Below are positions 4,332 to 31,290 of a stretch of DNA of 41,865 nt, piece by piece. Below the pieces are notes generated by a model. It had not been told where the DNA came from, made no database searches, and saw only the letters and a program-made list of their open reading frames with translations. A program made the position numbers and the translations under genes. Location: positions 1 to 41,865 of the forward strand of contig JAUXVN010000086.1 in NCBI GenBank assembly GCA_030684555.1, read 5' to 3'. The stretch's first letter is position 1, and each line of letters begins with the position of its first letter. Source of the stretch: Ignavibacteria bacterium (GTDB lineage: Bacteria; Bacteroidota; Ignavibacteria; Ignavibacteriales; Ignavibacteriaceae).

Positions 4332-4343
4332 CGAGCAAAAAAA

Positions 4344-4799: not shown

Positions 4800-4822
4800 A
4801 AATTATACTTAAAACTTAAATC

Positions 4823-7865: not shown

Positions 7866-7890
7866 TTTAAAATTAACAAGGGTATAAGAG

Positions 7891-8343: not shown

Positions 8344-8404
8344 TTATCGAATAACATTAAAAAAATAATTAGTCATTCTTATCATTTCATAAAGGAATAG
8401 AACA

Positions 8405-8812: not shown

Positions 8813-8966
8813 TAAGGAATATATATTTATTAATCACAATGTTAACACTAAGATTATAGAAACATCTGAAACCGAAAATACTTTTTCTATCGAGATGCAG
8901 CAAGCCGGTTGGTTGACAATTATAAATAACTTTGGGAGATATGTTGAAAGTAACCAAAATTTATGA
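8781..8966 (+). pseudogene. Remnant resembling the 3' end of an SRPBCC/AHSA1-type gene
   Basis: An open frame without a usable ATG, GTG or TTG start runs to a TGA at 8964-8966. It encodes a tail with IETSETENTFSIEMQQAGW and then NNFGRYVESNQNL. A tryptophan-containing last helix ending FGRYVE is what the C-terminus of SRPBCC/AHSA1-type START-fold proteins looks like, so I read this as a 5'-truncated gene. Its stop overlaps the ATG of the CYTH gene in an ATGA, as if the two had once been translationally coupled. Family assignment rests on one short segment and is weak. Confidence 0.35.
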
Positions 8967-9493
8967 ACATTAAGAATTATGAATTTAAAGCACGGGTAAC
9001 TGATTTAGAAAAGTATGAATCTAAATTATTAACCCTAAATCCACAATTTCACGGAATAGACAATCAAACGGATACTTACTTCAATGTTCCAAACGGAAGA
9101 TTGAAATTGCGTGAGGGAAACATTGAAAACTCATTAATTAATTATGATAGAGAAAACATAACCGATTCAAAATTATCAAACATAATTCTTTTTAAACATG
9201 AACCGGACAACGCACTTAAGAAAATATTGGAAATTCAATTTGGTATAAAAGTGGTCGTTAACAAAAAACGAAAGATATATTTCATCGATAATGTAAAATT
9301 CCATTTTGACATTGTTGAAACCCTTGGCACCTTCATCGAAGTTGAGGTTATCGATAACAATAACAACTTTACGGTTGAACAGCTCAAAGAACAATGTGAT
9401 AATTATTTCAATTTTTTTGAGTTAAATAAAACTGATCTGATAGATAAATCTTACAGTGACATGATTGTAGAAAAAACAGATTACAAAATGTAG
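8963..9493 (+). CDS. CYTH domain protein (adenylate cyclase class IV/thiamine triphosphatase-like)
   Basis: This 176-residue protein has the CYTH tunnel-fold signatures: NYEFKARVTDLEKYES at the N-terminus (one glutamate of the usual ExExK is replaced), DTYFNVPNGRLKLREG, alternating charged strands, and FIEVEVIDNNNNF with paired glutamates for metal. A closing helical part contains DKSYSDM. CYTH enzymes act on triphosphate substrates: class IV adenylate cyclases, thiamine triphosphatases and tripolyphosphatases. The pattern NxEFKARV followed by DTYF is closest to the cyclase/CyaB-like branch, but a phosphatase is equally possible. Its start overlaps the TGA of an upstream gene remnant. Confidence 0.85.
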   Translation: MNIKNYEFKARVTDLEKYESKLLTLNPQFHGIDNQTDTYFNVPNGRLKLREGNIENSLINYDRENITDSKLSNIILFKHEPDNALKKILEIQFGIKVVVNKKRKIYFIDNVKFHFDIVETLGTFIEVEVIDNNNNFTVEQLKEQCDNYFNFFELNKTDLIDKSYSDMIVEKTDYKM

Positions 9494-9527
9494 AATTAAG
9501 TTAATCAATAATTAGAGGGATAATATA

Positions 9528-9644
9528 TTGGCAAAAAAAGGGAATGTGCTAATAAATTCAATTACAGGAGACTCTTACGAGTTTATCGAAAAGATTCGTC
9601 TCGTGGTTATTTCAAAGATATTTTTTTTACTAATCGTTGTGTGA
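9528..9644 (+). pseudogene. Cupin gene fragment, frameshifted after the N-terminus
   Basis: A TTG at 9528, behind GAGGGA, opens a 38-codon frame starting LAKKGNVLINSITGDSYEFIE. That is the usual opening of a small cupin family (GxVLxNPVTGDxxEFxET). After EFIE the frame turns into hydrophobic, unrelated residues and stops. Moving to the next frame restores plausible sequence (KDSSRGYFKD) for about ten codons before AT-rich nonsense, so I infer a frameshift followed by loss of the cupin barrel. The metal-binding region is absent, so this cannot be a working cupin. Confidence 0.4.
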
Positions 9645-10168
9645 ATTACCAATTTTTTATATTTTAACGACACTTCTTAGGGCAAGGGCAAACAAACTTA
9701 ATTAATAATCAGAATATATTATTCAGCATTGGGGGTTAAATAAAAAATTAACAAACTCAATGGATATTATGTCCTACAAAAATTACCCGGTAACAGAACC
9801 GGAGAACCATCGTAATAAACACCTTCGGAGCTATCTGAAAAATGAGGCTTTTCTGTTTTCCACAAAACTCACTTCCGCAAATACAAGCACAGATTATATT
9901 ATCCACTTCATTAATGTTTGGTTTCATAATGCATTTTCAAAACAAAACTATAAACAACTATTTATCAACAACTTAGAGGGAGAGAGAAGATATGGTTAGT
10001 AAAATCATCGGTTTACATTTTCTTTGGTGTGAATCGGGATAAAATTTAACTATTAAATAAAAGCACATATAGTTACTTATTGAGATCGGGAAGAGCAGTT
10101 ATAAGTAATATTCAATAATTTATTAGGAAGGGGAAGAACAAAAATTTTTCATCTATAAGGAATTAACT
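9645..10168. other. Gene-poor stretch between cupin remnant and cytochrome gene
   Basis: The only open frame of note (9760-9999, 79 codons) resembles no family I know. It has a skewed composition, and its last codons read through what looks like a ribosome-binding site (GAGGGAGAGAG) before a 16-codon frame starting at about 9994. I therefore see decayed sequence rather than a gene. An imperfect-looking stem with exact 8-bp arms TTACTTAT (10073-10080) and ATAAGTAA (10101-10108) lies 60-95 bases before the cytochrome start and might be part of its leader. Confidence 0.45.
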
Positions 10169-11164
10169 ATGAAAAAAGGAATTAAAATTCTGAAATGGTC
10201 AGGGATTGTTCTCTTCTCGGTAATAGTTCTATTATTCTTATTTGTTCAACTAACATGGGATAATAAATTTGATGCACCCTATCCCGAAATTAAAGCAAGT
10301 ACTGATTCTGCAGTAATTGCCCGGGGAAAATATCTTGTTTTCGGACCCTCCCATTGCGCAACCTGCCACGTTCCGATGGATAAAATTATGGAAGTTGAAA
10401 ACGGTCTTGAAATGCCGTTAAGTGGTGGTTGGGAATTGAGCATCAGCGGATTTGGTAACTTTCACGCACCCAATATTACACCCGATATAGAAACGGGGAT
10501 TGGTAAACAGACAGATGGTGAAATTGCAAGGACACTTCGACATGGTGTTGGAAATGACGGCCGTTTAATTTTTCCTTTTATGCCTTATCAAGAAATGAGT
10601 GATGAAGATATGACGGCAATAATCTCATTCCTCAGAACACAAGATCCTATTAAACACGAATTAAAAAAAACAGAGTACGAATTTATGGCAAAAGCACTTA
10701 TCGCCTTCGGTTTATTCAAACCCGAGGGACCGAAAAACACTCCATTAAAATCGATTAAGAAAGATTCAACAGCAGAGTATGGAAAATATTTAGCTTATAA
10801 TGTTGCCAACTGCAGAGGATGTCATACTCAAATGGATCTTAATACCGGTGAATACATCGGAGAAGATTTTGCCGGAAATAACTTATTTGAACCTGATGCT
10901 TTTTCGGCTGGATATGCATTTGTTTCACCGAATTTAACTCCGGATAAAGCAACAGGAGTAATGACAAATTGGAGTGAAGAGTTTTTTATAACTCGATTCA
11001 AAGCAGGCCGTGTACATAAAGGGACTCCAATGCCCTGGGGAGCTTTTTCACGAATTGATGAAACTGATTTAAAAGCTATTTATCGATATTTAAATTCACT
11101 TGAACCGGTGAATAATATGGTTTCTAAAACTGTTTATTTGCCCGGCGAGTATTTACCTGAATAA
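10169..11164 (+). CDS. Membrane-anchored di-haem cytochrome c
   Basis: This 331-residue protein has one N-terminal membrane segment (about residues 12-28, GIVLFSVIVLLFLFVQL) and two cytochrome c domains facing the periplasm. The haem-attachment motifs are CATCH (Cys63, Cys66, His67) and CRGCH (Cys215, Cys218, His219). Likely axial methionines are in FPFMPYQEMSDED after the first and GTPMPWGAFS after the second. The arrangement resembles the cytochrome subunits of periplasmic alcohol/aldehyde or gluconate dehydrogenases, but no dehydrogenase gene is adjacent, so the electron donor is unknown. The start has AAGGAA seven bases upstream. It sits inside a run of small accessory genes. Confidence 0.93.
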   Translation: MKKGIKILKWSGIVLFSVIVLLFLFVQLTWDNKFDAPYPEIKASTDSAVIARGKYLVFGPSHCATCHVPMDKIMEVENGLEMPLSGGWELSISGFGNFHAPNITPDIETGIGKQTDGEIARTLRHGVGNDGRLIFPFMPYQEMSDEDMTAIISFLRTQDPIKHELKKTEYEFMAKALIAFGLFKPEGPKNTPLKSIKKDSTAEYGKYLAYNVANCRGCHTQMDLNTGEYIGEDFAGNNLFEPDAFSAGYAFVSPNLTPDKATGVMTNWSEEFFITRFKAGRVHKGTPMPWGAFSRIDETDLKAIYRYLNSLEPVNNMVSKTVYLPGEYLPE

Positions 11165-11167
11165 TGA

Positions 11168-11187
11168 TTCGTTTTTCGGAAAACGAA
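11168..11187 (+). terminator. Hairpin just after the cytochrome gene
   Basis: TTCGTTTT (11168-11175) and AAAACGAA (11180-11187) form an exact 8-bp stem around TCGG, three bases after the cytochrome stop codon. The position suits transcript termination or 3'-end protection, but no T-run follows, so a terminator function is only possible. Confidence 0.4.
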
Positions 11188-11268
11188 AATGTTTAGAAAA
11201 ACAAATTGGGTTATATTAAAATTTGAGAATCAATTAAAATAATCGAATACAAAAGGAGAACAATAGTT

Positions 11269-11709
11269 ATGACAACAGTGAATGTTTATCTAACCTTTAA
11301 GGATAATTGTATGGAAGTATTTGAATTCTACAAGTCAGTTTTTGGCGGGGAGTTTACCTATGTTGGAAAATTCGGTGATATGCCTTCACAAGAAGGTATC
11401 CCCCCTGTTCCCGAAAGTGAAAAGGATAAAATAATGCATATCAGTCTTCCCATTAGTAATGAAACTATGTTAATGGGAAGTGACAGTTCAGATGCATTCG
11501 GACATGTTACTTTAATGGGAAATAATTTTGCTGTTTCAATAAACACAGATAGTAAAGAAGAAGCCGACAGATTGTTCCATGGATTATCTGACGGTGGAAA
11601 AGTTACTATGCCGATGAATCAAACTTTTTGGGGCGCATATTTTGGTATGTTTACTGATAAGTTCAATATTAATTGGATGATTAGTGTCGAGTCGAACGAA
11701 CAGAATTAA
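11269..11709 (+). CDS. PhnB-like VOC family protein
   Basis: This 146-residue protein belongs to the PhnB/'3-demethylubiquinone methyltransferase-like' branch of the VOC fold. It has VNVYLTFKDNCMEVFEFYKSVFGGEF at the N-terminus, IMHISLPISNETMLMGSD in the middle, and a closing half with MPMNQTFWGAYFGMFTDKFNINWMIS. The last is the conserved WGxxxGxxxDxFGxxWMI end of that branch. Members are widespread and mostly of unknown function. The gene has its own strong ribosome-binding site (AAAGGAGAA), is 104 bp from the cytochrome gene and is followed by a long imperfect inverted repeat. Confidence 0.92.
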   Translation: MTTVNVYLTFKDNCMEVFEFYKSVFGGEFTYVGKFGDMPSQEGIPPVPESEKDKIMHISLPISNETMLMGSDSSDAFGHVTLMGNNFAVSINTDSKEEADRLFHGLSDGGKVTMPMNQTFWGAYFGMFTDKFNINWMISVESNEQN

Positions 11710-13198: not shown

Positions 13199-15079
13199 TT
13201 ATTTAATCATCTCTATCATCATTGTTAATTCCTCAACCATCTTTTCCGTGTTACCACCAAAGCCAACACTTTTAAAACGGATATTTCCTTCTTTATCAAT
13301 TACAAATTTTGTCGGAATTCCTTCTACTTTAAATTTTGCAACAACTTCGTTTTGCTCATCCATTAACACGTTAAAAGTATAATTATTTTTTTCGATAAAC
13401 TGAGTTGCGTTAGTTTTTTTCTCGGTCACATTTTCCCAAGTGTTTACAAATAAAAATTGAACTGCTTCATCATCTTTAAATTTGTTGACTGCTTTTTGCA
13501 TTCCCGGAAATGATACCAAACATGGACCGCACCAGGTTGCCCAAAAATCAACAATTACTGTTTTCCCTTTTAATGATGCAAGATTAATTTCTGCACCATT
13601 TAAATTCATAAGTGTAAAATCAGGAGCAGGTAATGATATTAATTCTTTTTGCAGTGACGTTCTAATTTTGGTTTTGAATGGCTCCTCAAGTTTATTAAGA
13701 TAGACAAGAAAATCTTTTTCATCCCCATTCTTTTTAACGAATTCTTCTTTAAGAATTTCTTTAATCTCATCATTTGCATTACCTGATTTCACAAAGTTTT
13801 CCGCAACATTAAAAACTTCACCATGTTTCAATTGCTTGAGTGTTTTCAGAAATTTTGAATTAATCTCTACCATTTTTCCGTCAGATAATTCAACTGCATT
13901 ACCAAGAAAGCTCAGTGCGTCTTTCTCGTTTTCCTCATTAATTAGTAGAGTGGTATAAGTGTCGTATGCGGTTGCGAGATTATTTTTTCGAACTTTTTTC
14001 CATTCTTTGTTTGTTTGATATTTGGGTTTTGCTTCTTTTGGAATCTCTAGTTCTGCCTCAGCAATTTCAATAGCCGACAACGCAAATTTTTTGGCAACAT
14101 CAACTTTGGTTTTGTCTGTTGAAAATTTTATTGCGTTACGGTTGTAAAAGCTCCATTTCTCTGCTTTCGGGTATTCTTTGAAGAATGTTTGCAGTTTATC
14201 TAATCCTTTAGCGAGATTAATTTCACTCATTATATTATACATTCTTCCGAGCATCTTGCTTTCCGGAAAATCATTATAAAAAGACTTAAATAATTCCTCT
14301 TTTTTAAGGGTGTCTTTTTCAGAATTAAAAGCGGAAGCTCTGATTGTCTGTGCGTGTTCACTTTTTGGGAATTTCTCAATTAAACGCTGACTGAATAATT
14401 TTGCTTCATCAGTTTTTCGGAATCGTGAATACCAACTCTGAAGAATTGTTAATTCTTCTTGCGTCAAGTTTTCTTTCTTTCCGATAACATCTAATTCTGC
14501 AAGAGCAATTTCCTTTGCTTTATCCTTATCGATGGCTAATAATGTGCTGATATAGCCACCAAAATAGAGGGATTTAGATTTTGGGAAAATTTCAAATTCT
14601 TTCTCAAAATATTTTAAAGCGGTTTCAGGCTCACGTTTCATTCCGGTAAAATATTCACCCCAATCTGAAATAGCTTCCGCAAGTCCGGCATATGCTCCGG
14701 TTGCCGGATTTTTATTCTCATCAAAAAGAAGGGAGTAATAACCGTTTCCTTCATTATTATCAATTAATTCATCGCCATCAAAAAATTTAAATACAACTCC
14801 GGAAATGTCATTTTCGAGTTTAAATTTTCCGGTTAGTTTATCTCCTGATGTTTTCAGAATTATTTCATTAGCTCTTAAAATTTCTTTTCCATAGGAATAG
14901 ATCACTGCTTCAATTTTATCAACGCTTTGAAGCGGGGTACCGGATTTATCATAAATAATTTCAATCGTTTCTCCTTTTTGCGGATGTTCAGGTTTTATAA
15001 TTAATTTCCCTTCATCCATAGCTGAACAGGTAATTGTTAAAAGTATAAAAAGGGAAAAGAGATTTTCAATTGTATCCAT
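13199..15079 (-). CDS. TlpA-type thioredoxin-fold protein with long helical N-terminal region
   Basis: This 626-residue exported protein has a hydrophobic N-terminus (NLFSLFILLTITCSAMDEG); the ITC could be a lipobox. Residues about 25-130 are beta-rich. A long helical region follows (about 140-470) with tetratricopeptide-like spacing (YFEKEFEIFPKSKSLYFGGYIST and similar). Residues about 485-626 are a TlpA/AhpC-TSA-like thioredoxin domain. The redox motif is WATWCGPC with Cys517 and Cys520, and the cis-proline is in EGIPTKFVID. Relatives reduce disulfides in periplasmic proteins or support cytochrome c maturation. The target here is unknown, and the helical region may hold the client. It is divergent from the glycosyltransferase at 15304. 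Confidence 0.9.
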   Translation of the reverse strand: MDTIENLFSLFILLTITCSAMDEGKLIIKPEHPQKGETIEIIYDKSGTPLQSVDKIEAVIYSYGKEILRANEIILKTSGDKLTGKFKLENDISGVVFKFFDGDELIDNNEGNGYYSLLFDENKNPATGAYAGLAEAISDWGEYFTGMKREPETALKYFEKEFEIFPKSKSLYFGGYISTLLAIDKDKAKEIALAELDVIGKKENLTQEELTILQSWYSRFRKTDEAKLFSQRLIEKFPKSEHAQTIRASAFNSEKDTLKKEELFKSFYNDFPESKMLGRMYNIMSEINLAKGLDKLQTFFKEYPKAEKWSFYNRNAIKFSTDKTKVDVAKKFALSAIEIAEAELEIPKEAKPKYQTNKEWKKVRKNNLATAYDTYTTLLINEENEKDALSFLGNAVELSDGKMVEINSKFLKTLKQLKHGEVFNVAENFVKSGNANDEIKEILKEEFVKKNGDEKDFLVYLNKLEEPFKTKIRTSLQKELISLPAPDFTLMNLNGAEINLASLKGKTVIVDFWATWCGPCLVSFPGMQKAVNKFKDDEAVQFLFVNTWENVTEKKTNATQFIEKNNYTFNVLMDEQNEVVAKFKVEGIPTKFVIDKEGNIRFKSVGFGGNTEKMVEELTMMIEMIK

Positions 15080-15303
15080 GATTTTCTCCGAATAATATTT
15101 TCTAAATCAAGATTTATTTTTATAATGTCAAAATAGGAAAGAATTTGGAAATATTATTTCCTTAGTGCTATAGAGATTTACTATTGTTTTACTTTGCGGA
15201 GAAACCACACAAACTAAAATGAAAATCTTCTTAAGGGGATTAATCTAAAAATAAGATTCTTCTTAATTATATTTACACACATTAATTAATAATTGAATTC
15301 CCT

Positions 15304-16503: not shown

Positions 16504-19125
16504 TTACCCCTTCATAAACACTAAATGTCCTTTATCTCCATATTCTATACGAACGATATCGCCACTGATGAAATTACCCATTAATAGCTGTTGAGAAAGA
16601 GGATTAATTAAATGCCTTTGAATAGTTCGCTTTAACGGGCGAGCGCCGAATGTTACATCGTAACCGATATGAGCAAGCCAATCCTTTGCTTGTTCGGTAA
16701 TAGCAAGAGTAATCTCTTTATCCGTTAACATAGAAGCTACCCGTGTTATTTGAAGTTCAACTATTTGTCTTATTTCGTTTTTCATTAATGGTTTGAATAA
16801 GACAACCTCATCAATACGGTTTAGGAATTCAGGCTTTATGGTTTTGCGTAATAATTCAGACAACTGCAATCGCATGTGTCCCATCTTTGAATCAAAATTT
16901 TCCTCGTCAAGATTCATCAATTCTTCTTGTATTAATTGTGAACCAAGATTTGAAGTCATAATTATAATTGTATTTTTAAAGTTTACAGTTCTTCCTTGAT
17001 TATCAGTTAATCTACCGTCATCAAGTACTTGAAGCAGAACATTAAAAACATCAGGATGCGCTTTTTCGATTTCATCAAGAAGTAAAACCGAGTAGGGTCT
17101 TCTTCTTACAGATTCGGTTAACTGTCCTCCTTCTTCATAACCGACATAACCGGGAGGCGCACCAATTAAGCGTGAAACCGAAAACTTCTCCATATACTCA
17201 GACATATCAATTCTTATCATCGCATGTTCATCATCAAAAAGAAATTCAGCTAAAGCCCTTGCTAATTCAGTCTTTCCTACACCTGTTGTTCCTAAGAAAA
17301 TGAAAGAACCGATTGGTCGATTCATATCTTGCAATCCTGCTCGTGAACGTCTTATTGCATTTGCAACCGCAATAACAGCATCATCCTGCCCAATTACTCT
17401 TTTGTGAAGTTCATCTTCAAGACGAAGTAATTTACTTCGTTCACTTTCCAACATTTTACTTACGGGAATGCCTGTCCACTTAGCAACTATCTCTGCAATA
17501 TCTTCGGCATCCACTTCTTCTTTCAACATCTTCTTAGATTTTTGAACTTCAGCGAGAAGAGCGGTTTCATCTCTCATCTTTTTTTCAAGAGAAGAAATTT
17601 TCCCGTATCGAATTTCTGCAACCTTACCAAGATCACCTTCGCGTTCATAACGCTCCGCATCAGCTTTAAGTTTTTCGATTTCACTTTTTGCATTTCTGAG
17701 AGATTGAATTTTCTCTTTCTCTAAATTCCAATGAAGCTTTAAGCCATTCTTCTCTTCATTGAATTGACTTAATTCTTCTTCAAGTTCAATTAACCTTTTA
17801 GCTGAAGGTTCATCATTTTCTCTTTTCAGAGCTTCACGTTCGATTTCAAGCTGCTTAATTTTTCTTTCGATTACATCAAGCTCTTCCGGCATTGAATCAA
17901 TTTCAATCCGCAATTTGGAAGCAGATTCATCAATAAGGTCAATTGCTTTATCAGGAAGAAAACGATCGGATATATATCTGTTAGATAATTGAACCGCTGC
18001 GACAATAGCGCTGTCGGTTATTCTTACACCATGATGAACTTCATACCGTTCTTTTAATCCGCGAAGTATGGATATGGCATCTTCTTCCGAAGGTTCACTT
18101 ACAAGAACAGGTTGAAAACGCCTTTCGAGTGCCGCATCTTTTTCGATATACTTTTTATATTCGTTTAGTGTAGTTGCTCCTACGCAATGAAGATCGCCCC
18201 GTGCCAATGCCGGCTTAAGAATATTTGCTGCATCTACAGCTCCTTCAGCGGAACCTGCACCTACAAGTGTATGAAGTTCATCAATAAATAAAATAATTTC
18301 ACCGTTGGCATCTTGTACTTCTTTCAAAACCGCTTTCATTCTTTCTTCAAACTGACCGCGATATTGTGCTCCGGCAATTAATGAAGCCATATCAAGCGCA
18401 ATGATTCTTTTACTTTTTAAATTTTCAGGAACATCACCTGAAATAATTCTATGTGCTAACCCTTCGGCAATCGCAGTTTTACCGACTCCCGGCTCTCCAA
18501 TTAAAACAGGATTATTTTTAGTCCTTCGAGATAACACTTGAAGAACCCTTCTAATCTCTTCGTCTCTGCCGATAACAGGATCAAGTTTCCCGCGCTTGGC
18601 AAGTTCATTTAAATCTCTTCCGAATTTTTTCAATGATTGATATGTATCTTCTGCATTTTGTGAAGTTACTCGTTGAGTGCCTCGAACTTCTTTTAATGCT
18701 TGAAGAATAATATTATGATTGATTCCGCTGTCTCGCAATAATTGTCCTGCATTTCCCCGGTCTTCCGAAAGAGAAAGAAGTAAATGCTCTGTTGAAACAA
18801 ATTCATCTTTTAGGTTTTTAGCTTCATCTGAAGCTGAATCAAATACTTTCCCAAGATGTTGCGACATCTGTTGATTACCGAGTCCTGAAGCCCCCGACAC
18901 TTTAGGAAGTCTTTCTAATAATTCGAGAGTTTTGATTTTTATTCTATCAGAATTAGCTCCCGTCTTTTGAATTATTACATCAGTAATTCCCCCTTTATCT
19001 TCAACAAGAGAAGCGAGGATATGTTCCGGTTCTAAAATTTGATTACCATAGTTTTGTGCAATCTCAAGTGCATTCTGAATTGCTTCTTGAGCTTTAATTG
19101 TAAATTTATTTTGATTGAATGACAT
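16504..19125 (-). CDS. clpB: ATP-dependent disaggregase ClpB
   Basis: This 873-residue protein has the full ClpB layout. There is a double Clp-N domain (about 1-150), a first AAA+ module with Walker A GEPGVGKT (Lys216) and Walker B ILFIDELH (Glu283), and the long middle coiled-coil (about 410-530, rich in Glu, Lys and Leu) that recruits DnaK. The second AAA+ module has GTTGVGKT (Lys618), [13 protein letters not shown] and a D2-small domain with [10 protein letters not shown]. It works as a cytoplasmic hexamer that, with DnaK/DnaJ/GrpE, extracts proteins from aggregates after heat or oxidative stress. A GAGGTAG site precedes the start. No CIRCE element is visible upstream. Confidence 0.98.
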
Positions 19126-21657: not shown

Positions 21658-22443
21658 TTAGTCTTCTAATTCAGGTTCGAAGATAAGCTTGACCATCGCA
21701 ATGCTGATGTTGTCTTTTCCACCGGCTTCTTTCGCCTTATTACATAGACTTATAGAAGAGTAATTTATTTCAAGATCGTTTTCGATTTCATCATCTGAGA
21801 GCATATCGGTTAAACCATCACTGCATAAGAGAAGAGTGTCATCGTCTAATAATTGATCTGTAATTTCAATGAAATCGATGAAGACAGATTCCCCGCCGCC
21901 AATCGAATTAAGAATTAAATGTGATTTGCTTCTTGCATCTCCAATAAGTTCAGCAAGTGAATGATCTTTAGAAATTTTTTTTAATATTCCTCTTCTGAAG
22001 CGATAAAGTCTGCTATCACCGGCGCTAAAATAGTAAACACGATTGTGCAGCAATAGCAGAGCTATTAAAGTTGCTCCCATTCCATGTTTATTAGAATCTC
22101 TTTTCCCTTCATCATTCAGCTTTTTGTGGATTTCTTTAACTTTGCTTTGAAAAAGTGGTTTTAATTCTTCAGAATCATTCGAAATATTTTCGGGAAGATT
22201 TTGCTTAAAAAGATGAAGTTCATTTAGTACAATTTCACTTGCAACTTCACCGGCATTATGTCCCCCCATTCCATCGCTTACGGCGATAAGGAATCGATTA
22301 TTAGTATCGTTCTGCTCAAGTGTAAGTTGAAAATTATTGTTACGGAATATCATTCCATCAAGAGAAACAATATCTTCGTTGTTTGTTCTTACAGCTCCAA
22401 CATCACAAACGGCATCAATGTTCAGGTTCAGAATCTTCATCAA
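21658..22443 (-). CDS. PP2C-family Ser/Thr protein phosphatase
   Basis: This 261-residue protein is a stand-alone bacterial PP2C of the Stp/PrpC/PppA size. The metal-binding aspartates are in the expected places: NNEDIVSLDG near the start, FLIAVSDGMGGHNAGEVASE (Asp57), YYFSAGDSRLYRFRRG, LLLCSDGLTDMLSDDEI and GGKDNISIAMV at the end. It removes phosphate from Ser/Thr residues using Mn or Mg and lies in the cytoplasm. Its start overlaps the FHA gene stop by four bases, so the two are translationally coupled. The evident partner is the kinase three genes upstream; together they form a reversible phosphothreonine switch. Confidence 0.97.
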   Translation of the reverse strand: MMKILNLNIDAVCDVGAVRTNNEDIVSLDGMIFRNNNFQLTLEQNDTNNRFLIAVSDGMGGHNAGEVASEIVLNELHLFKQNLPENISNDSEELKPLFQSKVKEIHKKLNDEGKRDSNKHGMGATLIALLLLHNRVYYFSAGDSRLYRFRRGILKKISKDHSLAELIGDARSKSHLILNSIGGGESVFIDFIEITDQLLDDDTLLLCSDGLTDMLSDDEIENDLEINYSSISLCNKAKEAGGKDNISIAMVKLIFEPELED

Positions 22444-23063
22444 ATTCTCACGGTTTTATCTAAGTCAACTTCTTCAGAACTAATCTGAACTAAAAATTCG
22501 ATGTTTGCAAGAATAATTTTCGTATTATTTACAAGCGGGTATAATAACATAGGCTCAAGTTTTTTGCCGTTATAAGTAGTTCCGTTTGAAGAGTTAAGAT
22601 CAAGAATATTCCAACCGGCTCCCTGTAAATATTTTATCTGAACATGCTTACCGCTGAGTTGATTATATGAAGATAATAGTGGTGTAAATGGACCTTGTTT
22701 TCTTCCAATAATATCATCGTGGTTTAACTTTAAAGTAAGATTCAATGAGTTGTTAACAAATTTTAATTCCGGTACACCGCTCGTTGATAAAGCAGCTTGA
22801 GTTGATGTAACCTGAGGCGCAGGTTGACTTGGAGTGCTTATTATTGGTTTATCGGGAACAACTTCGGTTTTTGAAGTTATGTTACTTTGTGCATTTTTCA
22901 TAGCGGCAAAATCTTTTGCTGTAACAAGCTTTGTTCCGTCACTTGTACAAACTTTGCCGGTTTTCGGATTTCTGCAAGTGGGACAAATTAATATTTCAAC
23001 TCCGCATTGATCACAAAAGAAAGAATCAAATTCAATATCGGCTTTACACTTAGCGCAAATCAT
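22440..23063 (-). CDS. FHA-domain protein with N-terminal zinc ribbon and C-terminal DKTVR motif
   Basis: This 207-residue protein starts with a zinc ribbon (Cys3, Cys6, Cys17, Cys20) and a second cysteine set (Cys27, Cys30, Cys39). A Ser/Thr/Pro-rich linker follows (about 55-97) and then an FHA domain (about 98-195). The phosphothreonine-binding residues are visible: Gly120-Arg121 (IIGRK), Ser137 with His140 (SGKHVQ) and Asn165-Gly166 (TTYNGKKL). The last seven residues are LDKTVRI, the same DKTVR found three times at the N-terminus of the kinase in this operon, so Thr204 is a likely phosphosite that could bind this FHA in cis or in trans. That is inference. It overlaps both neighbours by four bases. 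Confidence 0.95.
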   Translation of the reverse strand: MICAKCKADIEFDSFFCDQCGVEILICPTCRNPKTGKVCTSDGTKLVTAKDFAAMKNAQSNITSKTEVVPDKPIISTPSQPAPQVTSTQAALSTSGVPELKFVNNSLNLTLKLNHDDIIGRKQGPFTPLLSSYNQLSGKHVQIKYLQGAGWNILDLNSSNGTTYNGKKLEPMLLYPLVNNTKIILANIEFLVQISSEEVDLDKTVRI

Positions 23064-26000
23064 GATTCGATATCCTCCTTAATAAGTGTATTGATAATCG
23101 CCGGATCAGTGATTCCGGATTTAACTAAAACCGTTACGCGCGAACTTTGTTTTTGTAAAGCGGATTCAAATATATTTCTAACAGTTCTTGCATTGCCGAA
23201 ATTTTTATCTCTATTTTCATAAAGTTGATCGAAGTAGTTTCGAATCCATTCTTCGGTTTCAGGATTTATTTTCATCGATTTGTTATTAATCATCTTTACA
23301 AAAATTTCAGTCATCTCTTCGCCGTTGTAATCAACAAAGTGAATTTTCTTTGTGAAGCGGGATGTTAACCCCGGATTTGTCTGAATAAAATCATGCATTT
23401 GATCTGTATATCCTGCAATAACACAAACAAATTTTCCTCTATCATCTTCAAGCCGCTTTAATAAAGTATCAATTGCCTCTTTGCCAAAATCACCCTGACC
23501 TCCGACGCTTAGAGTATAAGCTTCGTCTATAAATAATATTCCTCCCATTGCTTGATCGATAAGGTCGTTTGTTTTAATTGAAGTTTGTCCGATATATTGA
23601 GCAACAAGTTTAGAGCGGTCTGCTTCAACAACATGTCCGCGCGGAAGTAAATCCAATCCTTTGAATATTTTTCCCATTAATCTTGCGACCGTTGTTTTTC
23701 CCGTTCCGGGATTTCCGGTAAAAATAAAATGAAGATTAAGTTGAGTTTCTTTTCCACCTGACTCACTTCTGATTTTTTCAACATTAAGGAAGTCAACAAG
23801 ACTTCTAACTTCTTCTTTAATATTTTTCATTCCGGTAAGCTGGTTTAGTTCTGAAATAACATCATCAATGTTAATCTCTTTCTTTTTATCGAAAGGAATG
23901 TCTTGCGGAAGAATAGTTACAAAAACATTGTTGTCAGTGATTTCTTCTGGTTTAAGCTTTCCGATTCTGTCAGAAAAACGATTGATTGTATCTTCAAAAA
24001 GCTTTCTCATCTCGCGGGCATTAGCAAAGTTTTTATCTCGACCATCATAAATAGCTTTGATTGCCTTTGCTAAAATATCATCTGTATCTGGATGAAGAAT
24101 AAATTTACGTTTGCTTAAAAATTGTTTATAGATACGAACCAGCTCGGCTGGTTTATAATCTTCAATGTGAAGATATTTATTGAAGCGGCTTTTCATTCCC
24201 GGGTTAGTATTTAAGAAGCGGTCCATTTCCTGCTGATAACCTGCAGCAATAACAACATATTTTCCGCGGTCATCTTCCATTCGTTTCATCAAAGTTTCGA
24301 TTGCTTCCTTGCCGAATGCATCGGTGCTTCCGCTTGATGATGCAGCAAGTGTGTAAGCTTCATCAATAAAAAGAATACCTCCCATTGCTTTTTCAATTTG
24401 CTCGTTTACAAGTTTTGGAGTTTGTCCGATATATTGTCCGACTAAGCTACTTCTATCGGTTTCGATAACGTGTCCTTTTGAAAGAAAATCGACTGCTTTA
24501 AATATCTCACCAAGTTTTCGTGAAATAGTTGTTTTTCCAGTTCCGGGATTTCCGGTAAGAATAAAATGGATTCCCAAACTCTCTTTATCACCAAGCCCGC
24601 GTTTAAAGCGTTCTTGTTGCACTTGAATTTGTTGAGCAATCTCACGAACGGCAGCTTTAACATTATCCATTCCGATAAATTCATCAAGCTCAGTTAGTAT
24701 TTCGGGAATAGTTTTTTTCTTTTTAATATTGATTCCGAGATCATCCTTCGTAATCGTATTCAGGTCTTTATCATTCAATTCATCTACATTTAACTTGCTT
24801 AAGCGGGCACTCTGTTTTTGAAGTGATGATTCAAAAATATTTCTAACTTCCCGCGCATTACCGAAATTTTTATCACGCTTATCATATAGTTCTTCAAAAT
24901 ATTCAACAAGATTTGAGGCGGCTTCACCTTCGAGCAACATATCTTTTTCGGTTACAAGTTTTTCGTAAATCTGCGCCATTTCTTTACCGTTGTAATCGTC
25001 GAAATGGATTGTCTTTGTAAATCTTGATAGTAGCCCGGGATTTGTCTCAAGAAAATCTTTCATTTGTTGTGTATATCCGGCAACAATAACAACAAACTTT
25101 CCTCTATCATCTTCCATTCGTTTGAGCAGTGTATCGATAGCTTCCTTACCGAAACTTGAATCGCCGCTGCTTAATGTATATGCTTCATCGATAAATAATA
25201 AGCCACCCATTGCAGAGTCGATAAGTTGATTTGTTTTGATGGCGGTTTGTCCGCTATAACCTGCAACAAGTTTAGAGCGGTCTGCTTCAATTAAATGACC
25301 GCGCGGCAATAATCCGAGTGAAGAAAATATTTTTCCCATTAATCTGGCAACGGTAGTTTTCCCAGTTCCGGGATCTCCGGTGAAGACAAAATGAAGACTA
25401 AGTTGAGTTTCTTTTCCGCCTGCTTCAGCACGCTTCTTTTCGAAGTTAAGATAATCAACAAGATTTTTAACTTCATCTTTAATGGTTTTCATTCCGGTCA
25501 GTTTATTTAAGTCAACCATAACTTCTTCAACAGAAAGCTCTTTCTTAGCTGTGAATGGAATATCTTCCGGTTGAACAGTTGTATATACCGAGTCATCAGT
25601 TATAGAAGAAGGCCCAAGTTTACCAAGCCTATCAGAAAACTTAGTTACAGTATCTTCAAAAAGCTTTCGCATTTCCCTTCCGTTACCGAAGTATTTATCG
25701 CGTGAATCGTGAATGGCTTTGATTGCTTTCTTTGCTATTTCTTCGGCTTCAGGACTTAAAACATATTTTTTCTTTTTGATAAATCCCTTGTAAATTTTTA
25801 GAAGCTCGTCAGGGTTATAATCATTTATATGAAGATATTTATTGAAGCGGCTTTTCATTCCCGGATTTGAATTTAGGAAGTTTTCCATTTCTAATTGATA
25901 ACCGGCTGCAATCATCACAAACTTACCACGGTCATCTTCCATACGTTTCATTAATGTTTCGATTGCTTCGGTACCGTACTTATCTTTTGAACCATCACCG

Positions 26001-27235
26001 CTTTGCGGAGCAAGGGCATAGGCTTCATCAACAAATAGAATTCCCCCCATAGCTTTATTAATTGCTTCGGTGACTATCTTAGGAGTTTCTCCTTGATACT
26101 GCCCTACTAGTTGGGAGCGGTCAGTCTCGATTACGTGTCCACTATCAAGGTAAGCGATTGCTGCAAAAATATCACCAAGTTTGCGTGCGATTGTTGTTTT
26201 GCCGGTCCCGGGATTTCCGGTAAGAACTATATGTATTCCGAATTTTTCATCATCGGATAGACCGCGTAGCGCCCGTTCTTGCTGCATTTGGACTTGTTTG
26301 GCTATTTCTTTAACAGCGGTTTTAACATTATCCATTCCGATGAATTCATCAAGCTCGGTCATAATTTGATCAAGACTTCTTTCAACGGGAATATCACCAT
26401 GAATATCATCTACCGAAACAATGTTATCATCATTTGCCCCTTTACCAATGCGGGCGAGATAAGATTTAAAAATATTCTCTGCGGTGTTTGAAGCCAGATG
26501 CGCATTTCCGAAAGATTCGTTTTTTGTTTTAACAGCTTGCTTAAATAATGATTTCAATCGTTTTTCGGAATCATCATTTAATGTAAGCGAATAGGATTTC
26601 AGTTTATTTACACTTATCTGATAAAGTTCGTTTGAAGAATAATCAGGCAGCTTAAATAAATATTTAAATCTGTTTTTTACCGAAGGATTTTTTTCGAGGA
26701 ACTCTTCAAATCCCTTGGGAAGTCCGGCAAGAATTACAATTGGATCAAATCCGAATTTATCCATTTCAGAAAATAGTTTATCAAGTTGATTTATATCTGA
26801 AGCAAAACCACCCGGAATTAGTTTTTGAGCGTTATCGATGAACAAAATTCCCCCTTTTAGATTAGGGAGATTTTGAGATAACTTTTGTGAATAAGCGGGA
26901 TAGTCAACCGCATCAATAATTTCTGCAGTTGGTTTGGTCGTAATTCCATTTTGAAAATAGAGCTGTTCTAAAATTTTTACAAGTGCACTTTTACCCGTGC
27001 CGGCATTTCCGATTATTATGCTATGCAAATTAATTTTGAATGCACTTCCCCCCTGCCGTTTTTGCATAGCTTTGGTAATGTTAATTAACGATTTGATTTC
27101 GTTTTTAACTTCGCCAAGTCCTATCATGTCTTCAAGCAATGAGGTTGATTCAGACAAAATCGGTTGTCCGCATATCTTGCAATACTTTGCAATATCTCTA
27201 TTTTGGGTTGAACATTTATCACATTGAATAGGCAT
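23060..27235 (-). CDS. Five-module CbxX/CfqX-type AAA+ protein with N-terminal zinc ribbon
   Basis: This 1391-residue protein starts with a zinc ribbon (Cys5, Cys8, Cys19, Cys22) and carries five tandem AAA+ modules of the CbxX/CfqX class, the family of Rubisco activase CbbX, SpoVK and EccA. Walker A lysines are at about 82, 346, 626, 901 and 1180. Module 1 is degenerate: its Walker B reads ILFIDNAQ, with Asn in place of the catalytic Glu. Modules 2-5 have intact DEA Walker B boxes (Glu404, 684, 959, 1237). Modules 2 and 4 are alike, as are 3 and 5, with a period of about 555 residues, so the array is an A-B-A-B duplication. Single-module relatives work as hexameric remodelling ATPases. The client here is unknown. 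It starts two bases after the kinase stop. Confidence 0.95.
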   Translation of the reverse strand: MPIQCDKCSTQNRDIAKYCKICGQPILSESTSLLEDMIGLGEVKNEIKSLINITKAMQKRQGGSAFKINLHSIIIGNAGTGKSALVKILEQLYFQNGITTKPTAEIIDAVDYPAYSQKLSQNLPNLKGGILFIDNAQKLIPGGFASDINQLDKLFSEMDKFGFDPIVILAGLPKGFEEFLEKNPSVKNRFKYLFKLPDYSSNELYQISVNKLKSYSLTLNDDSEKRLKSLFKQAVKTKNESFGNAHLASNTAENIFKSYLARIGKGANDDNIVSVDDIHGDIPVERSLDQIMTELDEFIGMDNVKTAVKEIAKQVQMQQERALRGLSDDEKFGIHIVLTGNPGTGKTTIARKLGDIFAAIAYLDSGHVIETDRSQLVGQYQGETPKIVTEAINKAMGGILFVDEAYALAPQSGDGSKDKYGTEAIETLMKRMEDDRGKFVMIAAGYQLEMENFLNSNPGMKSRFNKYLHINDYNPDELLKIYKGFIKKKKYVLSPEAEEIAKKAIKAIHDSRDKYFGNGREMRKLFEDTVTKFSDRLGKLGPSSITDDSVYTTVQPEDIPFTAKKELSVEEVMVDLNKLTGMKTIKDEVKNLVDYLNFEKKRAEAGGKETQLSLHFVFTGDPGTGKTTVARLMGKIFSSLGLLPRGHLIEADRSKLVAGYSGQTAIKTNQLIDSAMGGLLFIDEAYTLSSGDSSFGKEAIDTLLKRMEDDRGKFVVIVAGYTQQMKDFLETNPGLLSRFTKTIHFDDYNGKEMAQIYEKLVTEKDMLLEGEAASNLVEYFEELYDKRDKNFGNAREVRNIFESSLQKQSARLSKLNVDELNDKDLNTITKDDLGINIKKKKTIPEILTELDEFIGMDNVKAAVREIAQQIQVQQERFKRGLGDKESLGIHFILTGNPGTGKTTISRKLGEIFKAVDFLSKGHVIETDRSSLVGQYIGQTPKLVNEQIEKAMGGILFIDEAYTLAASSSGSTDAFGKEAIETLMKRMEDDRGKYVVIAAGYQQEMDRFLNTNPGMKSRFNKYLHIEDYKPAELVRIYKQFLSKRKFILHPDTDDILAKAIKAIYDGRDKNFANAREMRKLFEDTINRFSDRIGKLKPEEITDNNVFVTILPQDIPFDKKKEINIDDVISELNQLTGMKNIKEEVRSLVDFLNVEKIRSESGGKETQLNLHFIFTGNPGTGKTTVARLMGKIFKGLDLLPRGHVVEADRSKLVAQYIGQTSIKTNDLIDQAMGGILFIDEAYTLSVGGQGDFGKEAIDTLLKRLEDDRGKFVCVIAGYTDQMHDFIQTNPGLTSRFTKKIHFVDYNGEEMTEIFVKMINNKSMKINPETEEWIRNYFDQLYENRDKNFGNARTVRNIFESALQKQSSRVTVLVKSGITDPAIINTLIKEDIES

Positions 27236-27237
27236 AA

Positions 27238-30200
27238 TTATCTTGTTCTTCTTGTTCTACGTGTTGGTTTTTTAGCTGCTTCTTCTGCCGCTTTTTTCTC
27301 GTTAGCAGCCTTAATTGAGTCTTGAATTTGTTCTTGACGAAACTCTTCCGGGTGTAAAACTTCTTTGTATTGCGGATCAAGATAGATAAGGAAGAATAAC
27401 AAAGTTGCAAAAGCGAGAGAAGGTAAAGCGCTATATCTGAAAATCATGAATTTAGTTGATCGTCTAGTTTTTTTATAGGTTTTTAATAATTCATCTTTTG
27501 AACTTTCAAATTTAGGTTCATCATTGAATACAAATTGAAGAGGCTCATAAACATAACCGCTGAAATCATTCGGATCGAATAATTGGTTTCTCAAATTTAC
27601 ATCTGTATACTGTCCCTTTAGGATTTTATCAAACACAAAATAAAGAGCAACGACTAAAATTCCCGCAAGCAAGTACCAAAGCGAAATTGTAAGCATGAAT
27701 AAATAATAAACCACCACACCCACAATCAGTCCTAATATTGGTCCGCCAAACAATAATGTGCTGAAAGAAAATTCACCATCGTCTATCATTCCTAACAGAA
27801 CGAATCCCATAGTTAAAATTACCATTACGATATAGTAGTAGGAGCTTACATCCCAGAAAGCTCCCGGTAAGGGGTTGCTTTCCAAATTATAGACATAATA
27901 CATCAACACTCCTGCGAAGAGTACGGGAAAGATTAGGAAAATCCATTTCACTAAATTGAACCGTTGATCAACAGCACCTTCTTTTGTTATCATGTCGTGG
28001 AAGTATTTTACCCCTGTATTAAAACGTTTAACAAAAGTATTCTCGGGATTAATACTCTCAACAAACTGAACATATTCTTTCAATTTAATCTCATAATCTC
28101 CCCGCTTCTTGAAAACGAGGAAAGGATCTTCATGGAAGAAAACACTTAACCAGGCATTAACCAATGAGTCTTTTTTCTCTAGTTCAGGAATTAGTTTTGA
28201 TTTTACATTATTATCTGCTTTTTGTAATTGTTCCGGTTTAGTGAACTTTTTTCCTTCGAAATAAAAAGGAGTTTCACCACCAAAGCCGCGTATTATTTTG
28301 TACGTTGAAATATCGGCACTTGTATAACCAATTTTCCCCTTGTTATAACCTTTCGAATAAAAACTTCTGAAGGCATTATATTCATTGGTTAAACCGCGGG
28401 CAATTAAGAACATATAAAATTCATCATTGCCGTTTTTAAGTTGTTTAGAATATTTCTTGATGTTGTTAGCTAAAGCTTCGGCAAGCTCTTCTTTTGTGGT
28501 GCAGTGTGAATCATCAAGAGCATTATAACCGATAGATGGGTCAAGTGCATACGCAGCACAAACTAAACCGGCAGATTGATTTTTTTCAAATTGCTCAACT
28601 ATAGAATTAATTTGTTCGAGCAAACCTTGATCTATATAGTAAATCCATGCTGCAACTTCGTGACTGAAAAGAACTTCTTTTCCTCTTTCGGGTTCATCCC
28701 AAAATCTGATGGATAATTCTTCGGGGGTAGTAATTGGATCTCCTTCGTCAAACATAAACGGTGCTTCAGGATCAAGTGTATATAACACGTGCATAATTGC
28801 AATGTAGTCAACATAATCTTTAAAGTATTTTCTGAATTGTTTGACCTCTTTGTTTAACCCATGTGCAGAGAAGTATAAATAAAAAGAATCATTTTTATTT
28901 TGAAGCCGCTTCATATATTCTTCTTTATTGTTCTGAAGAACAGTAACAAAGTCTTCAATAGAACGGCACTTTGTTCCGTCATCGGCGATATATGGAAGGT
29001 CGGGATCAAGCATGAAAATAGCGGCTTGTAAGCCTGCTTCTTCATCTTTTGGATAATTGGTTTCGTAAATTTCTTCCAGCGTAACGGAAAGTTTTAAATT
29101 GTTACACTCGTCAAGCCAATTTTTAATTTTCCCTCTGTATAAATATTTTTTGCCGATAGCGGGATAATCTTGTAATAATTTAGCAAGCTCAATCGGAGTA
29201 TTGGCGACTAAATCTAAATCGGAATCATATACGAATGGTTTATATTTGGATTGATCTTGTTCAACGAAAACAGAAACAGCTTCACCACGCATCCATTTTT
29301 TAATTTCTTGATAACCCCAGCGTTTATCAATGCTGACAACGGTTAATCCTTTAATAAGATTTTTAAGTTCAGCCGGCATATCTTCGGGGATATTAATTTT
29401 GCCGAGATTTTTAATTCTCATAATTCCCATTTCAGGAATCCCTTTAAACGGATTTTCTGCTGTCCAGATTTTGATAAGCATTATGCCGAGTGCATAATAA
29501 TCAAGCTCTTTGCTTACAAAAGCTTTTCCATCAAGACTTTGATATAATTCGGGAGCTGCATAAACCATGGTTCTTGCTTGACCTGTAACTTGAGCTTCCT
29601 GGTTTTCATCGAGTAGAGATGAGATGCCGAAATCACCAATTAAAACATCACTTCCGTCGGCATTTTTGTAAAATATATTTTCGGGTTTTATATCGCGATG
29701 GATAATACCTTTGCTGTGGCAATATTCGAGAGCATCTGTTGTTTCATCAACAATCTCTTTAATTCTCTTCATATCTTTTATTGGAAGATAAGTATCGAGA
29801 GTTCCGCCGGCAGCAAATTCAAGAAGTTCATAGAATCGTCCTTCATGATAACCATAATCAAGAACTCTAAGAATATCTTTATGAGAGATAGCACGCATCT
29901 TTTTAATGAGTGCTTCTTTCGGTTTGATGTTTGGATAATAAAGTTTTAGAACAGATTTTTCTCCTTCTTTTTCAAGAAGAAAAATTTGTGCTTCACCGGT
30001 TGATTCTGAAATTACTTTTAATTTTTGATAAGTTTTTTGATTTAATACAAACGAAGTTTGTTGTGTGACATTCACTGCAATCTTTGTCCCAAGAGCATTG
30101 GTCGCATTTCCATCAGAAGAAATAAGACCGCCGTCTGCCCTAACGGTTGAATCGTTATCATCTAGTGCGTCGGCTGAGATTACTCCCGAACCGGCTCTTA

Positions 30201-30315
30201 CAGTTTTATCCGGATCATCAGAAGAATTCGCACTGATAATATTTTGTCCGGCACGAACAGTTTTGTCCTCATCATCGTTATTTATTCTGACGGTTTTGTC
30301 GTCGTCTGCTGCCAT
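27238..30315 (-). CDS. Membrane-anchored Ser/Thr protein kinase with DKTVR repeats
   Basis: The 1025-residue protein opens with an acidic tail holding DKTVR at residues 6-10, 17-21 and 36-40 and DSTVR at 55-59. The Hanks-type kinase domain (about 92-345) has Lys124 (SVLKLYY), HRDIKPEN (Asp208, Asn213), GDFG (Asp228) and AAPELY (Glu256). Its glycine loop (ISESTGEAQIF) lacks the usual GxGxxG. Residues about 359-735 hold about five degenerate repeats, the clearest with LDPDLPY, LDPEAPF and LDPSIGY followed by a helical DSFYLYFSAHGL-type segment. About five membrane segments lie at 790-900 and 957-979. The tail ends in TRRTRRTR. It should be held at the inner membrane with the kinase in the cytoplasm, phosphorylating itself, the FHA protein or the AAA+ protein. 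Confidence 0.95.
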   Translation of the reverse strand: MAADDDKTVRINNDDEDKTVRAGQNIISANSSDDPDKTVRAGSGVISADALDDNDSTVRADGGLISSDGNATNALGTKIAVNVTQQTSFVLNQKTYQKLKVISESTGEAQIFLLEKEGEKSVLKLYYPNIKPKEALIKKMRAISHKDILRVLDYGYHEGRFYELLEFAAGGTLDTYLPIKDMKRIKEIVDETTDALEYCHSKGIIHRDIKPENIFYKNADGSDVLIGDFGISSLLDENQEAQVTGQARTMVYAAPELYQSLDGKAFVSKELDYYALGIMLIKIWTAENPFKGIPEMGIMRIKNLGKINIPEDMPAELKNLIKGLTVVSIDKRWGYQEIKKWMRGEAVSVFVEQDQSKYKPFVYDSDLDLVANTPIELAKLLQDYPAIGKKYLYRGKIKNWLDECNNLKLSVTLEEIYETNYPKDEEAGLQAAIFMLDPDLPYIADDGTKCRSIEDFVTVLQNNKEEYMKRLQNKNDSFYLYFSAHGLNKEVKQFRKYFKDYVDYIAIMHVLYTLDPEAPFMFDEGDPITTPEELSIRFWDEPERGKEVLFSHEVAAWIYYIDQGLLEQINSIVEQFEKNQSAGLVCAAYALDPSIGYNALDDSHCTTKEELAEALANNIKKYSKQLKNGNDEFYMFLIARGLTNEYNAFRSFYSKGYNKGKIGYTSADISTYKIIRGFGGETPFYFEGKKFTKPEQLQKADNNVKSKLIPELEKKDSLVNAWLSVFFHEDPFLVFKKRGDYEIKLKEYVQFVESINPENTFVKRFNTGVKYFHDMITKEGAVDQRFNLVKWIFLIFPVLFAGVLMYYVYNLESNPLPGAFWDVSSYYYIVMVILTMGFVLLGMIDDGEFSFSTLLFGGPILGLIVGVVVYYLFMLTISLWYLLAGILVVALYFVFDKILKGQYTDVNLRNQLFDPNDFSGYVYEPLQFVFNDEPKFESSKDELLKTYKKTRRSTKFMIFRYSALPSLAFATLLFFLIYLDPQYKEVLHPEEFRQEQIQDSIKAANEKKAAEEAAKKPTRRTRRTR

Positions 30316-30351
30316 AATTAAATCCTTATCTTAATAAATTTATCTCGAAAA

Positions 30352-31290
30352 TTAATTGCTTGTATCTATTACCCAGACTCCCCCGCCATGAGGCTCGGCG
30401 CATTCGCTTGGGTCGTTATGCAAAACTTCATACCTTGAACAGCGCCAGCCTATTATTCTTGGCGGTTTTGATGCTTTGAAAAACTTTCTTGCTTCCTGTG
30501 GATTTTGAAAAGTAAGTGATTTCATTTTATTTAATTTTTCTTGAGCCTCTCGATTTTTTCTTGCCCGTTCTTGATTCTTTGATGCAATATCCTGTGCTCG
30601 TTTTAATGCATCTTTTAATGATTCTCTTTTTACTTCGGGTTTGGGAGTATTCTGGGTTTGTGGTTTTGGAGCTTCTTTTTGTGATTTTTGTATATAACCG
30701 GATATGCTGTTCAGAAGAGCAAGTTTTTTTTGTCTCTCTTCTTCTTCCTTATCTACCAACTCCTCTTGCTTAGCCTGTGCTTCATCTTGTTGAAGTAAGA
30801 CAGACTCTTCTTTAATCTCCTGCTCCATCTGTGCAATTTCTTGAAAAAGATTTTGCATTTGAGACATAACCGGATCGTTCTGAATTTGCTTAATTGCTTC
30901 TAAAGCAAAATCAGTTAAAGGGGTATTACATTTTGGACAAAAATCGAAGTAACTTAAATGCTGACATGTATGACAAACTATTCCGACTACGGGGTTTCCA
31001 CATTCACCGCAAAATGTTTCATTAAGATCGACAGGGGATGAACAGAATTTACATTGTTTATCAAGCAGCCAATGACCGCAGGCTTCACATATATCGGCAT
31101 TCGGGTAAACTTTAGAGTTGCATTTTGGACATTTTAAATCTTCGGTAAGAGAAGCCCCACATTCTTCACAAAATTTAGCTTCATAATTATTCAGCGTAGA
31201 ACAAGCATGGCAAGTTTTACTCTCCGGCTTTTCTAAAGCTTTCTGTTGAAAAGCTTTCTCCTGAAACCGGGACTGTTCCTGGTTATCCAT
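30352..31290 (-). CDS. Four-zinc-ribbon protein with coiled-coil region
   Basis: This 312-residue protein has eight CxxC pairs between residues 27 and 121 (27/30, 41/44, 54/57, 68/71, 80/83, 94/97, 106/109, 118/121), forming about four zinc ribbons. A strongly charged helical region of about residues 130-270 (QMEQEIKEESVLLQQDEAQ and KALLNSISG-like parts, rich in Gln, Glu and Lys) is probably a coiled coil. The last 40 residues contain a small Trp/Cys/His module (GWRCSRYEVLHNDPSECAEP) with a different look. I know of no named family for the whole. It is the first gene of the tight kinase-AAA-FHA-phosphatase operon, 36 bp upstream of the kinase, and may be its adaptor or scaffold. Confidence 0.88.
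   Translation of the reverse strand: MDNQEQSRFQEKAFQQKALEKPESKTCHACSTLNNYEAKFCEECGASLTEDLKCPKCNSKVYPNADICEACGHWLLDKQCKFCSSPVDLNETFCGECGNPVVGIVCHTCQHLSYFDFCPKCNTPLTDFALEAIKQIQNDPVMSQMQNLFQEIAQMEQEIKEESVLLQQDEAQAKQEELVDKEEEERQKKLALLNSISGYIQKSQKEAPKPQTQNTPKPEVKRESLKDALKRAQDIASKNQERARKNREAQEKLNKMKSLTFQNPQEARKFFKASKPPRIIGWRCSRYEVLHNDPSECAEPHGGGVWVIDTSN

Follow-up and report, generated by a model that had tools for sequence, protein, structure and literature searches.

Recurrent five-gene blocks joining a Ser/Thr kinase, a PP2C phosphatase and an FHA protein to a multi-module AAA+ protein look like a threonine-phosphorylation-switched machine

In the threonine phosphorylation pathway of the type VI secretion system (T6SS), a Ser/Thr kinase, a PP2C phosphatase, an FHA protein and an AAA+ protein (PpkA, PppA, Fha and ClpV) belong to one circuit. 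Fha of Agrobacterium is described as binding a phosphothreonine of TssL, and recruitment of ClpV1 in Pseudomonas as requiring Fha1 (PMC3953482). In Sulfolobus, the interaction of ArnA with ArnB is reported to be tied to phosphorylation, with ArnC and ArnD as kinases, and two ArnB phosphopeptides contain ETTRR (PMC6509490). The FHA domains of GarA, OdhI and Bdellovibrio DgcB are described as binding a phosphothreonine motif in the tail of their own protein (PMC6733907), as is also reported for GarA self-binding (PMC5448819). Here we describe a minus-strand block of five genes (positions 21658-31290, 9.6 kb) in a 41,865-nucleotide stretch of DNA of an Ignavibacteria bacterium (contig JAUXVN010000086.1; this whole stretch is hereafter “the window”). 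The block encodes a kinase, a PP2C phosphatase, an FHA protein, an AAA+ protein and a zinc-ribbon protein. The five genes recur in distant bacteria and, judged from their sequences, seem to form a single, so far undescribed machine with threonine phosphorylation as its switch.

The first gene of the block encodes the zinc-ribbon protein (ZnR, 30352-31290), which has four zinc ribbons (DZR/Zn_Ribbon_1), a charged middle and a C-terminal W-C-H-C-GG motif. It is followed by a membrane Ser/Thr kinase of 1025 amino acids (27238-30315), a five-module CbxX/CbbX-type AAA+ protein of 1391 amino acids (23060-27235), a zinc ribbon plus FHA protein of 207 amino acids (22440-23063) and the PP2C phosphatase (21658-22443). 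All of these, and all features of the five genes given below, are on the minus strand. The original prediction, made from the DNA letters alone, had described five packed genes with spacings of 36 bp (ZnR-kinase), 2 bp (kinase-AAA+), -4 bp (AAA+-FHA) and -4 bp (FHA-PP2C), and we confirmed the positions of all open reading frames (ORFs) and their domains. The PP2C ORF begins at TTG; if the next ATG (22440) is taken instead, the overlap between the FHA and PP2C genes shrinks to 1 bp. Pfam E-values for the window proteins were 1.8e-19 (DZR), 1.7e-35 (Pkinase), 1.5e-8 (FHA) and 5.1e-12 (PP2C_2). The AAA+ and FHA proteins also open with zinc ribbons, thus three of the five operon proteins are ribbon-bearing.

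Compared with the T6SS circuit, the block differs in that its AAA+ protein is of the multi-module CbxX type, in its extra zinc-ribbon protein, and in carrying a threonine motif on both the kinase and the FHA protein. The T6SS sheath protein VipB (PF05943) had no match in the genome of the window, whereas the control search matched in E. coli, and we therefore rejected a T6SS remnant; with no VipB and a single FHA match in this genome, the block is unlikely to be a T6SS module left orphaned. The likening of the kinase, PP2C and FHA trio to PpkA, PppA and Fha in the original prediction thus stands as an analogy, as the three do occur together, and not as membership. The best solved sequence match over the length of the ribbon plus FHA domain is ArnA (chain 5a8i, 5.7e-15, profile positions 3-193), and the window protein has the ArnA-type layout of an N-terminal zinc finger followed by FHA. 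The Sulfolobus pair differs in that the partner is a vWA protein, not an AAA+ protein, and in that archaellum expression is controlled; no vWA model was among the matches listed for the five operon proteins (the best 25 of 55 for the AAA+ protein) and three neighbors. As in GarA and DgcB, the window FHA protein has a threonine motif in a flexible tail or linker; the outputs differ (a GGDEF domain in DgcB, metabolic-enzyme targets for GarA), as does the motif wording, compared here without an alignment. We know of no AAA+ partner of GarA, OdhI or DgcB. The AAA+ modules belong to the same family (AAA plus AAA_lid_6) as CbbX/CfxQ, EccA and SpoVK, but the operon proteins have three to six modules per chain, a first module without the Walker-B Glu, an N-terminal ribbon and a kinase/FHA operon. 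GAP1-N2 GTPase-centered conflict systems are described with a kinase, PP2C and a zinc ribbon; they differ in their GTPase and vWA proteins, and the part of that account available to us notes no CbxX AAA+ protein with the kinase/PP2C/FHA trio (PMC7159879). The view that no system of this composition has been described agrees with our literature search: no system joining a CbxX/SpoVK/CbbX AAA+ protein with FHA, kinase and PP2C was found in the open-access literature, a scope that leaves most subscription papers and preprints outside.

Using the C-terminal part of the kinase as a query, we identified matches in 5 of 296 genomes of the same phylum, including that of the window. Three of the other four have the order ZnR-kinase-AAA-FHA-PP2C on one strand; in locus L009 a SUKH-like gene is inserted between ZnR and kinase, and in the fourth, genome G066, the contig stops after the kinase gene. 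A contig scan seeded with the FHA alignment alone returned 28 loci, three of which are records already found via the kinase query. They derive from Ignavibacteria (including Melioribacteraceae), Chitinophagaceae, many Bacteroidales, three Burkholderiales (Roseateles, Pelomonas and Ramlibacter), one Spirochaetales and others. Among the entries, L012, L013 and L015 duplicate L008, L009 and L007, L077 and L078 duplicate L027 and L029, and L010 and L014 are, by their matching coordinates, apparently two contigs of one genome (G066). The AAA+ gene is directly upstream of FHA in all 28 FHA-seeded loci, with a small extra AAA ORF between the two in L027. Kinase and PP2C were each detected in 26 of 28 loci and ZnR in 24 (one cut by the contig end); in L038 the automatic search labeled the FHA gene as ZnR, and this call was excluded from the count. 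In every locus lacking ZnR or the kinase, the gap falls at a contig end. Gene order varies: in the spirochaete and the three Burkholderiales the kinase comes after PP2C, and in L016 the last gene is ZnR. Given the conservation of the arrangement across these loci, we rejected chance gene packing. The neighbor genes are thus conserved, and a five-gene block turns up in distant genera without a constant secretion partner, the pattern that the original prediction had named as its test.

The 29 FHA proteins were also made into a profile, which was searched against four genome sets to check the block out of sample. Strong full-length matches were found in 6 of 395 genomes of the window's phylum (its own genome counted), 1 of 250 around Roseateles (the seed only), 3 of 247 around a Bacteroides and 3 of 149 around the spirochaete (seeds counted), so that carriers, seed included, make up 0.4-2% of the sampled genomes. 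Thirteen other genomes of the 395 matched at E-values of 1e-10 to 1e-15, by coverage mostly over the FHA part only. Three new loci among the full-length matches (L076, L079 and L080) each have all five genes, with ZnR only weakly similar in two of them; at two weaker matches (L081 and L082) the full five-gene set is not present. In L080, from the spirochaete phylum, window-like kinases flank AAA-FHA-PP2C on both sides (3018-6350 and 13439-15115). The protein distance matrices of 18 loci correlate at 0.89-0.97 for all ten gene pairs (0 of 2000 permutations each; 18 of 30 entries were used, with L010 and 11 others dropped and the L010 kinase substituted for that of L014). From these correlations, we read the five genes as inherited as a unit.

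Pfam detected at least four AAA and at least four AAA_lid_6 stretches in the AAA+ protein (among the best 25 of 55 matches), and a profile derived from the modules of this protein itself resolved five: module 1 (26378-27139), module 2 (25547-26377), module 3 (24725-25534), module 4 (23885-24712) and module 5 (23063-23872). Motifs are intact in modules 2 to 5, of which module 4 is module 2-like and module 5 is module 3-like. Module 1 keeps its Walker A, and its Walker B reads FIDN, with Asn in place of Glu. The N-terminal zinc ribbon (27167-27223) has C5, C8, C19 and C22 invariant in four sequences, with the same Cys in 14 others. Homologous chains have three to six modules, the fifth of L038 being degenerate. 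The Walker B DE is present in 1 of 26 first modules and in 86 of 87 later modules, and Asn takes the second place in 24 of the 26; none of the 26 lacks the Walker A Lys (GK in 22, AK in 4). These counts exclude L018, L026 and L030, in which the start of the AAA+ gene is cut or split, and all aligned modules exceed 200 amino acids. Among the out-of-sample first modules, that of L076 has DN at Walker B, and a simple-pattern search found no Walker B in those of L079 and L080. An AAA+ module with Walker A but without the Walker-B Glu is expected to bind ATP without hydrolyzing it. Because the first modules have lost this Glu and kept the Walker A Lys, their sequences suggest an ATP-binding module incapable of hydrolysis.

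The closest solved relatives of the modules are CbbX (6.5e-57) and EccA1 (1.4e-52). Whole-protein models of SpoVK, EccA and CbbX scored 1141, 949 and 902, above their cut-offs, as sums over five modules; since the scores add up over modules, we rejected naming the protein a SpoVK or EccA orthologue. The ClpV1 model scored 52 bits against a cut-off of 885.

The N-terminus of the window kinase carries DKTVR three times (30287-30300, 30254-30267 and 30197-30210) and DSTVR once (30139-30153). These lie in residues 1-81, which are predicted to be disordered (predicted local distance difference test score, pLDDT, below 50 in the AlphaFold (AF2) model). The motif wording changes with lineage (DKTIR, DKTMRP, DKTLRP, DKTLKP, GTARI, GTQRP and NSTLKM). 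In 20 of 27 kinase N-termini, fewer than 1% of composition shuffles reach the observed count of TxR/K motifs. The window FHA protein ends in a DKTVRI tail (22443-22460), beyond its FHA domain (22512-22709; PF00498), in which G120, R121, S137, H140 and N160 are invariant in 29 sequences. By eye, 18 of 29 FHA proteins have a DKTVR-like motif, 10 in the C-terminal tail and 8 in the linker before the FHA domain; a looser automatic rule found 21 of 29. The motifs of the FHA proteins fit their own kinase better than other kinases (mean 20.8 versus 15.1 in 21 loci; 0 of 10000), a statistic that, like the shuffle counts, is inflated by relatedness of the loci, and the match is weaker than it appears because related loci share wording. 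Together with the Walker-B loss in the first module, the DKTVR motifs support phosphothreonine gating.

In the predicted model, the kinase chain runs from a disordered tail through the kinase domain and a set of four to five helical repeats to membrane helices at the C-terminus. In the kinase domain (residues 88-342, 29290-30054; Pfam, AF2 and Foldseek), K124, D208, N213 and D228-F229-G230 do not vary among 26 sequences; this alignment omits the fragmentary L022 and L033 as well as L014 and L026, whose loci lack a kinase. Foldseek searches with the kinase model returned only kinase chains in the best 50 of 1972 matches. The repeats (28051-29196), of about 78 amino acids each, were recognized from the AF2 secondary structure; residues 345-790 had no Pfam family match up to an E-value of 5, and the repeats may, at a guess, be the sensor. 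Transmembrane segments (27373-27963) were placed from hydropathy and AF2 helices, with hydrophobic stretches near residues 785-811, 823-901 and 961-981. In PP2C, D56, D208 and D243 are invariant in 25 sequences, aligned without L018, L032 and the two loci lacking the gene; the catalytic and key residues of the kinase, PP2C and FHA proteins thus look intact. In L018 the AAA+ (6573-9948) and PP2C (10619-11366) genes are each split over two ORFs, as is the kinase of L022 (522-3490); the assemblies may contain sequencing errors here, or the copies may be broken. The Cys columns of ZnR and W282, C284, H291, C297, G303 and G304 are invariant in 22 sequences, aligned without L013, L022, L037, L038 and the three loci lacking the gene. 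The shared W, C, H, C, GG motif lies in the C-terminal 45 residues of ZnR and may represent an undescribed small zinc domain.

The best explanation of these features, to which we give a probability of about one half, is that the operon encodes one co-inherited machine in which a phosphothreonine switch of kinase, PP2C and FHA protein controls an AAA+ remodeler. The membrane kinase would sense a signal via its helical repeats or membrane part. Its substrates would be threonines of the disordered DKTVR-like tail that it carries itself, and of the FHA protein's tail or linker; PP2C would strip these phosphates. The phosphorylated motif bound by the FHA domain would lie either in the same protein, a self-binding known from GarA, OdhI and DgcB, or in the kinase tail. 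Depending on this binding, the AAA+ protein would either be recruited by the FHA protein to the membrane kinase or be let go. The AAA+ protein would bind ATP at the putatively hydrolysis-dead module 1, the later modules would remodel a target, and docking of the parts probably falls to the zinc ribbons. Since writer, eraser, reader, a candidate ligand and motor all occur here, with their key residues conserved, and FHA precedents exist, we favor phosphothreonine-dependent recruitment or release of the AAA+ protein at the membrane. Tentatively, and with somewhat less confidence, we put forward the fuller statement that phosphothreonine on the repeated tails is written by the membrane kinase and erased by PP2C, that the ribbon-FHA protein reads it and so gates a single-chain multi-module AAA+ remodeler with a conserved, ATP-locked anchor as its first module, and that this unit, found in at least three phyla, is undescribed. 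The phosphothreonine-gated remodeling of the original prediction is still an inference; the motif common to kinase and FHA protein, and the degeneracy conserved in the first module, now give it firmer ground.

Several observations weigh against this switch. Seven of the 27 kinases fail the shuffle test, the failure of L036 being partly an artefact of an N-region trimmed to 39 residues. Eight of the 29 FHA proteins have no motif and three are doubtful, and in L076, L079 and L080 neither the kinase nor the FHA protein shows a clear TxR repeat. Genome-wide, the motif had 26 DNA matches (4 in the operon) against 20 for a reversed-pattern control; follow-up covered the plus-strand matches, read in frame, and with so little excess substrates outside the operon are not indicated. 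L026 and L031 have no PP2C beside FHA, and a PP2C search of the L031 genome found no match at a threshold of 1e-8. The predicted model of the AAA+ protein has good local confidence and an unreliable module arrangement (predicted template modeling score, pTM, 0.44), so we claim no ring, and with chains of three, four, five and six modules no single hexamer rule fits.

Within 6 kb of the operons, the largest recurrent flank cluster comprises AAA proteins from six loci (a core fragment of L018 and the window ClpB among them) and the second SUKH-like proteins from four; beyond these, no flanking family recurs in more than three loci. SUKH/SMI1-KNR4-type genes lie within or near the operon in L008 (10445-10966), L009 (8189-8983), L010 (4665-5198), L023 (11980-12729) and L036 (16737-17243); three of the five reach the Pfam cut-off, with L010 and L023 below it. 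A DUF1963 gene adjoins L027. Two Burkholderiales loci have a lipoprotein-like gene of about 560 amino acids after the kinase (L025, 15326-16990; L032, 15383-17092), and the L025 copy had no Pfam match. In three Bacteroidales, a second AAA protein of about 620 amino acids lies beside the block (L019, 11526-13397; L024, 11451-13325; L034, 1-1527, cut), with one AAA module by Pfam in that of L019. The ClpB gene of the window (16504-19125) is about 2.5 kb beyond the operon, and none was present among the flanking ORFs within 6 kb elsewhere.

The trio might instead regulate a housekeeping-type activase or chaperone for one enzyme or complex, much as CbbX serves Rubisco, with the ribbons sensing redox state or metal. 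CbbX is indeed the closest solved relative of the modules, several zinc ribbons occur among the operon proteins, and the flanking genes vary from locus to locus, so any target would be encoded elsewhere. We consider this unlikely, as the scattered rarity of the block in the four genome sets is unlike that of a housekeeping partner and no common target gene was found among the flanks within 6 kb. Less probable again is a conflict or defense system in which the kinase activates the AAA+ protein to dismantle invader or toxin complexes. The patchy spread, the SUKH-type and DUF1963 genes, and the resemblances seen with PADLOC (kinase domain to mad6, 7.4e-38; AAA+ protein to IetA, 9.6e-31) are consistent with such a role. 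However, among the matches listed the PADLOC hits extend over no more than the kinase, AAA or PP2C portions, the scores with the corresponding NCBIfam models fall far short of the cut-offs, no nuclease or toxin domain is among the matches listed for the five proteins (the best 25 of 55 for the AAA+ protein), and searches of plasmids and phages with the FHA protein found no match. A stray or derived secretion piece, from the T6SS pathway or as an EccA-like type VII part, is very improbable despite the T6SS-like trio and the resemblance of the modules to EccA1: the AAA+ protein is of CbxX and not ClpV type, AAA and SUKH-like proteins aside, none of the families flanking the operons within 6 kb recurs in more than three loci, and VipB is unmatched in the window's genome, the one carrier searched for it; no search for type VII core genes was made.

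To our knowledge, neither reader nor output has been assigned for many bacterial Ser/Thr kinases. The phosphothreonine-switched machine proposed here has its writer, eraser, reader, candidate ligand motif and probable output motor in one 9.6 kb unit, and a rebuild in vitro is therefore possible. The loci also offer a natural series of three to six AAA+ modules per chain with a conserved altered first module. If the proposal is true, it would represent phosphothreonine switching of an AAA+ remodeler outside secretion.

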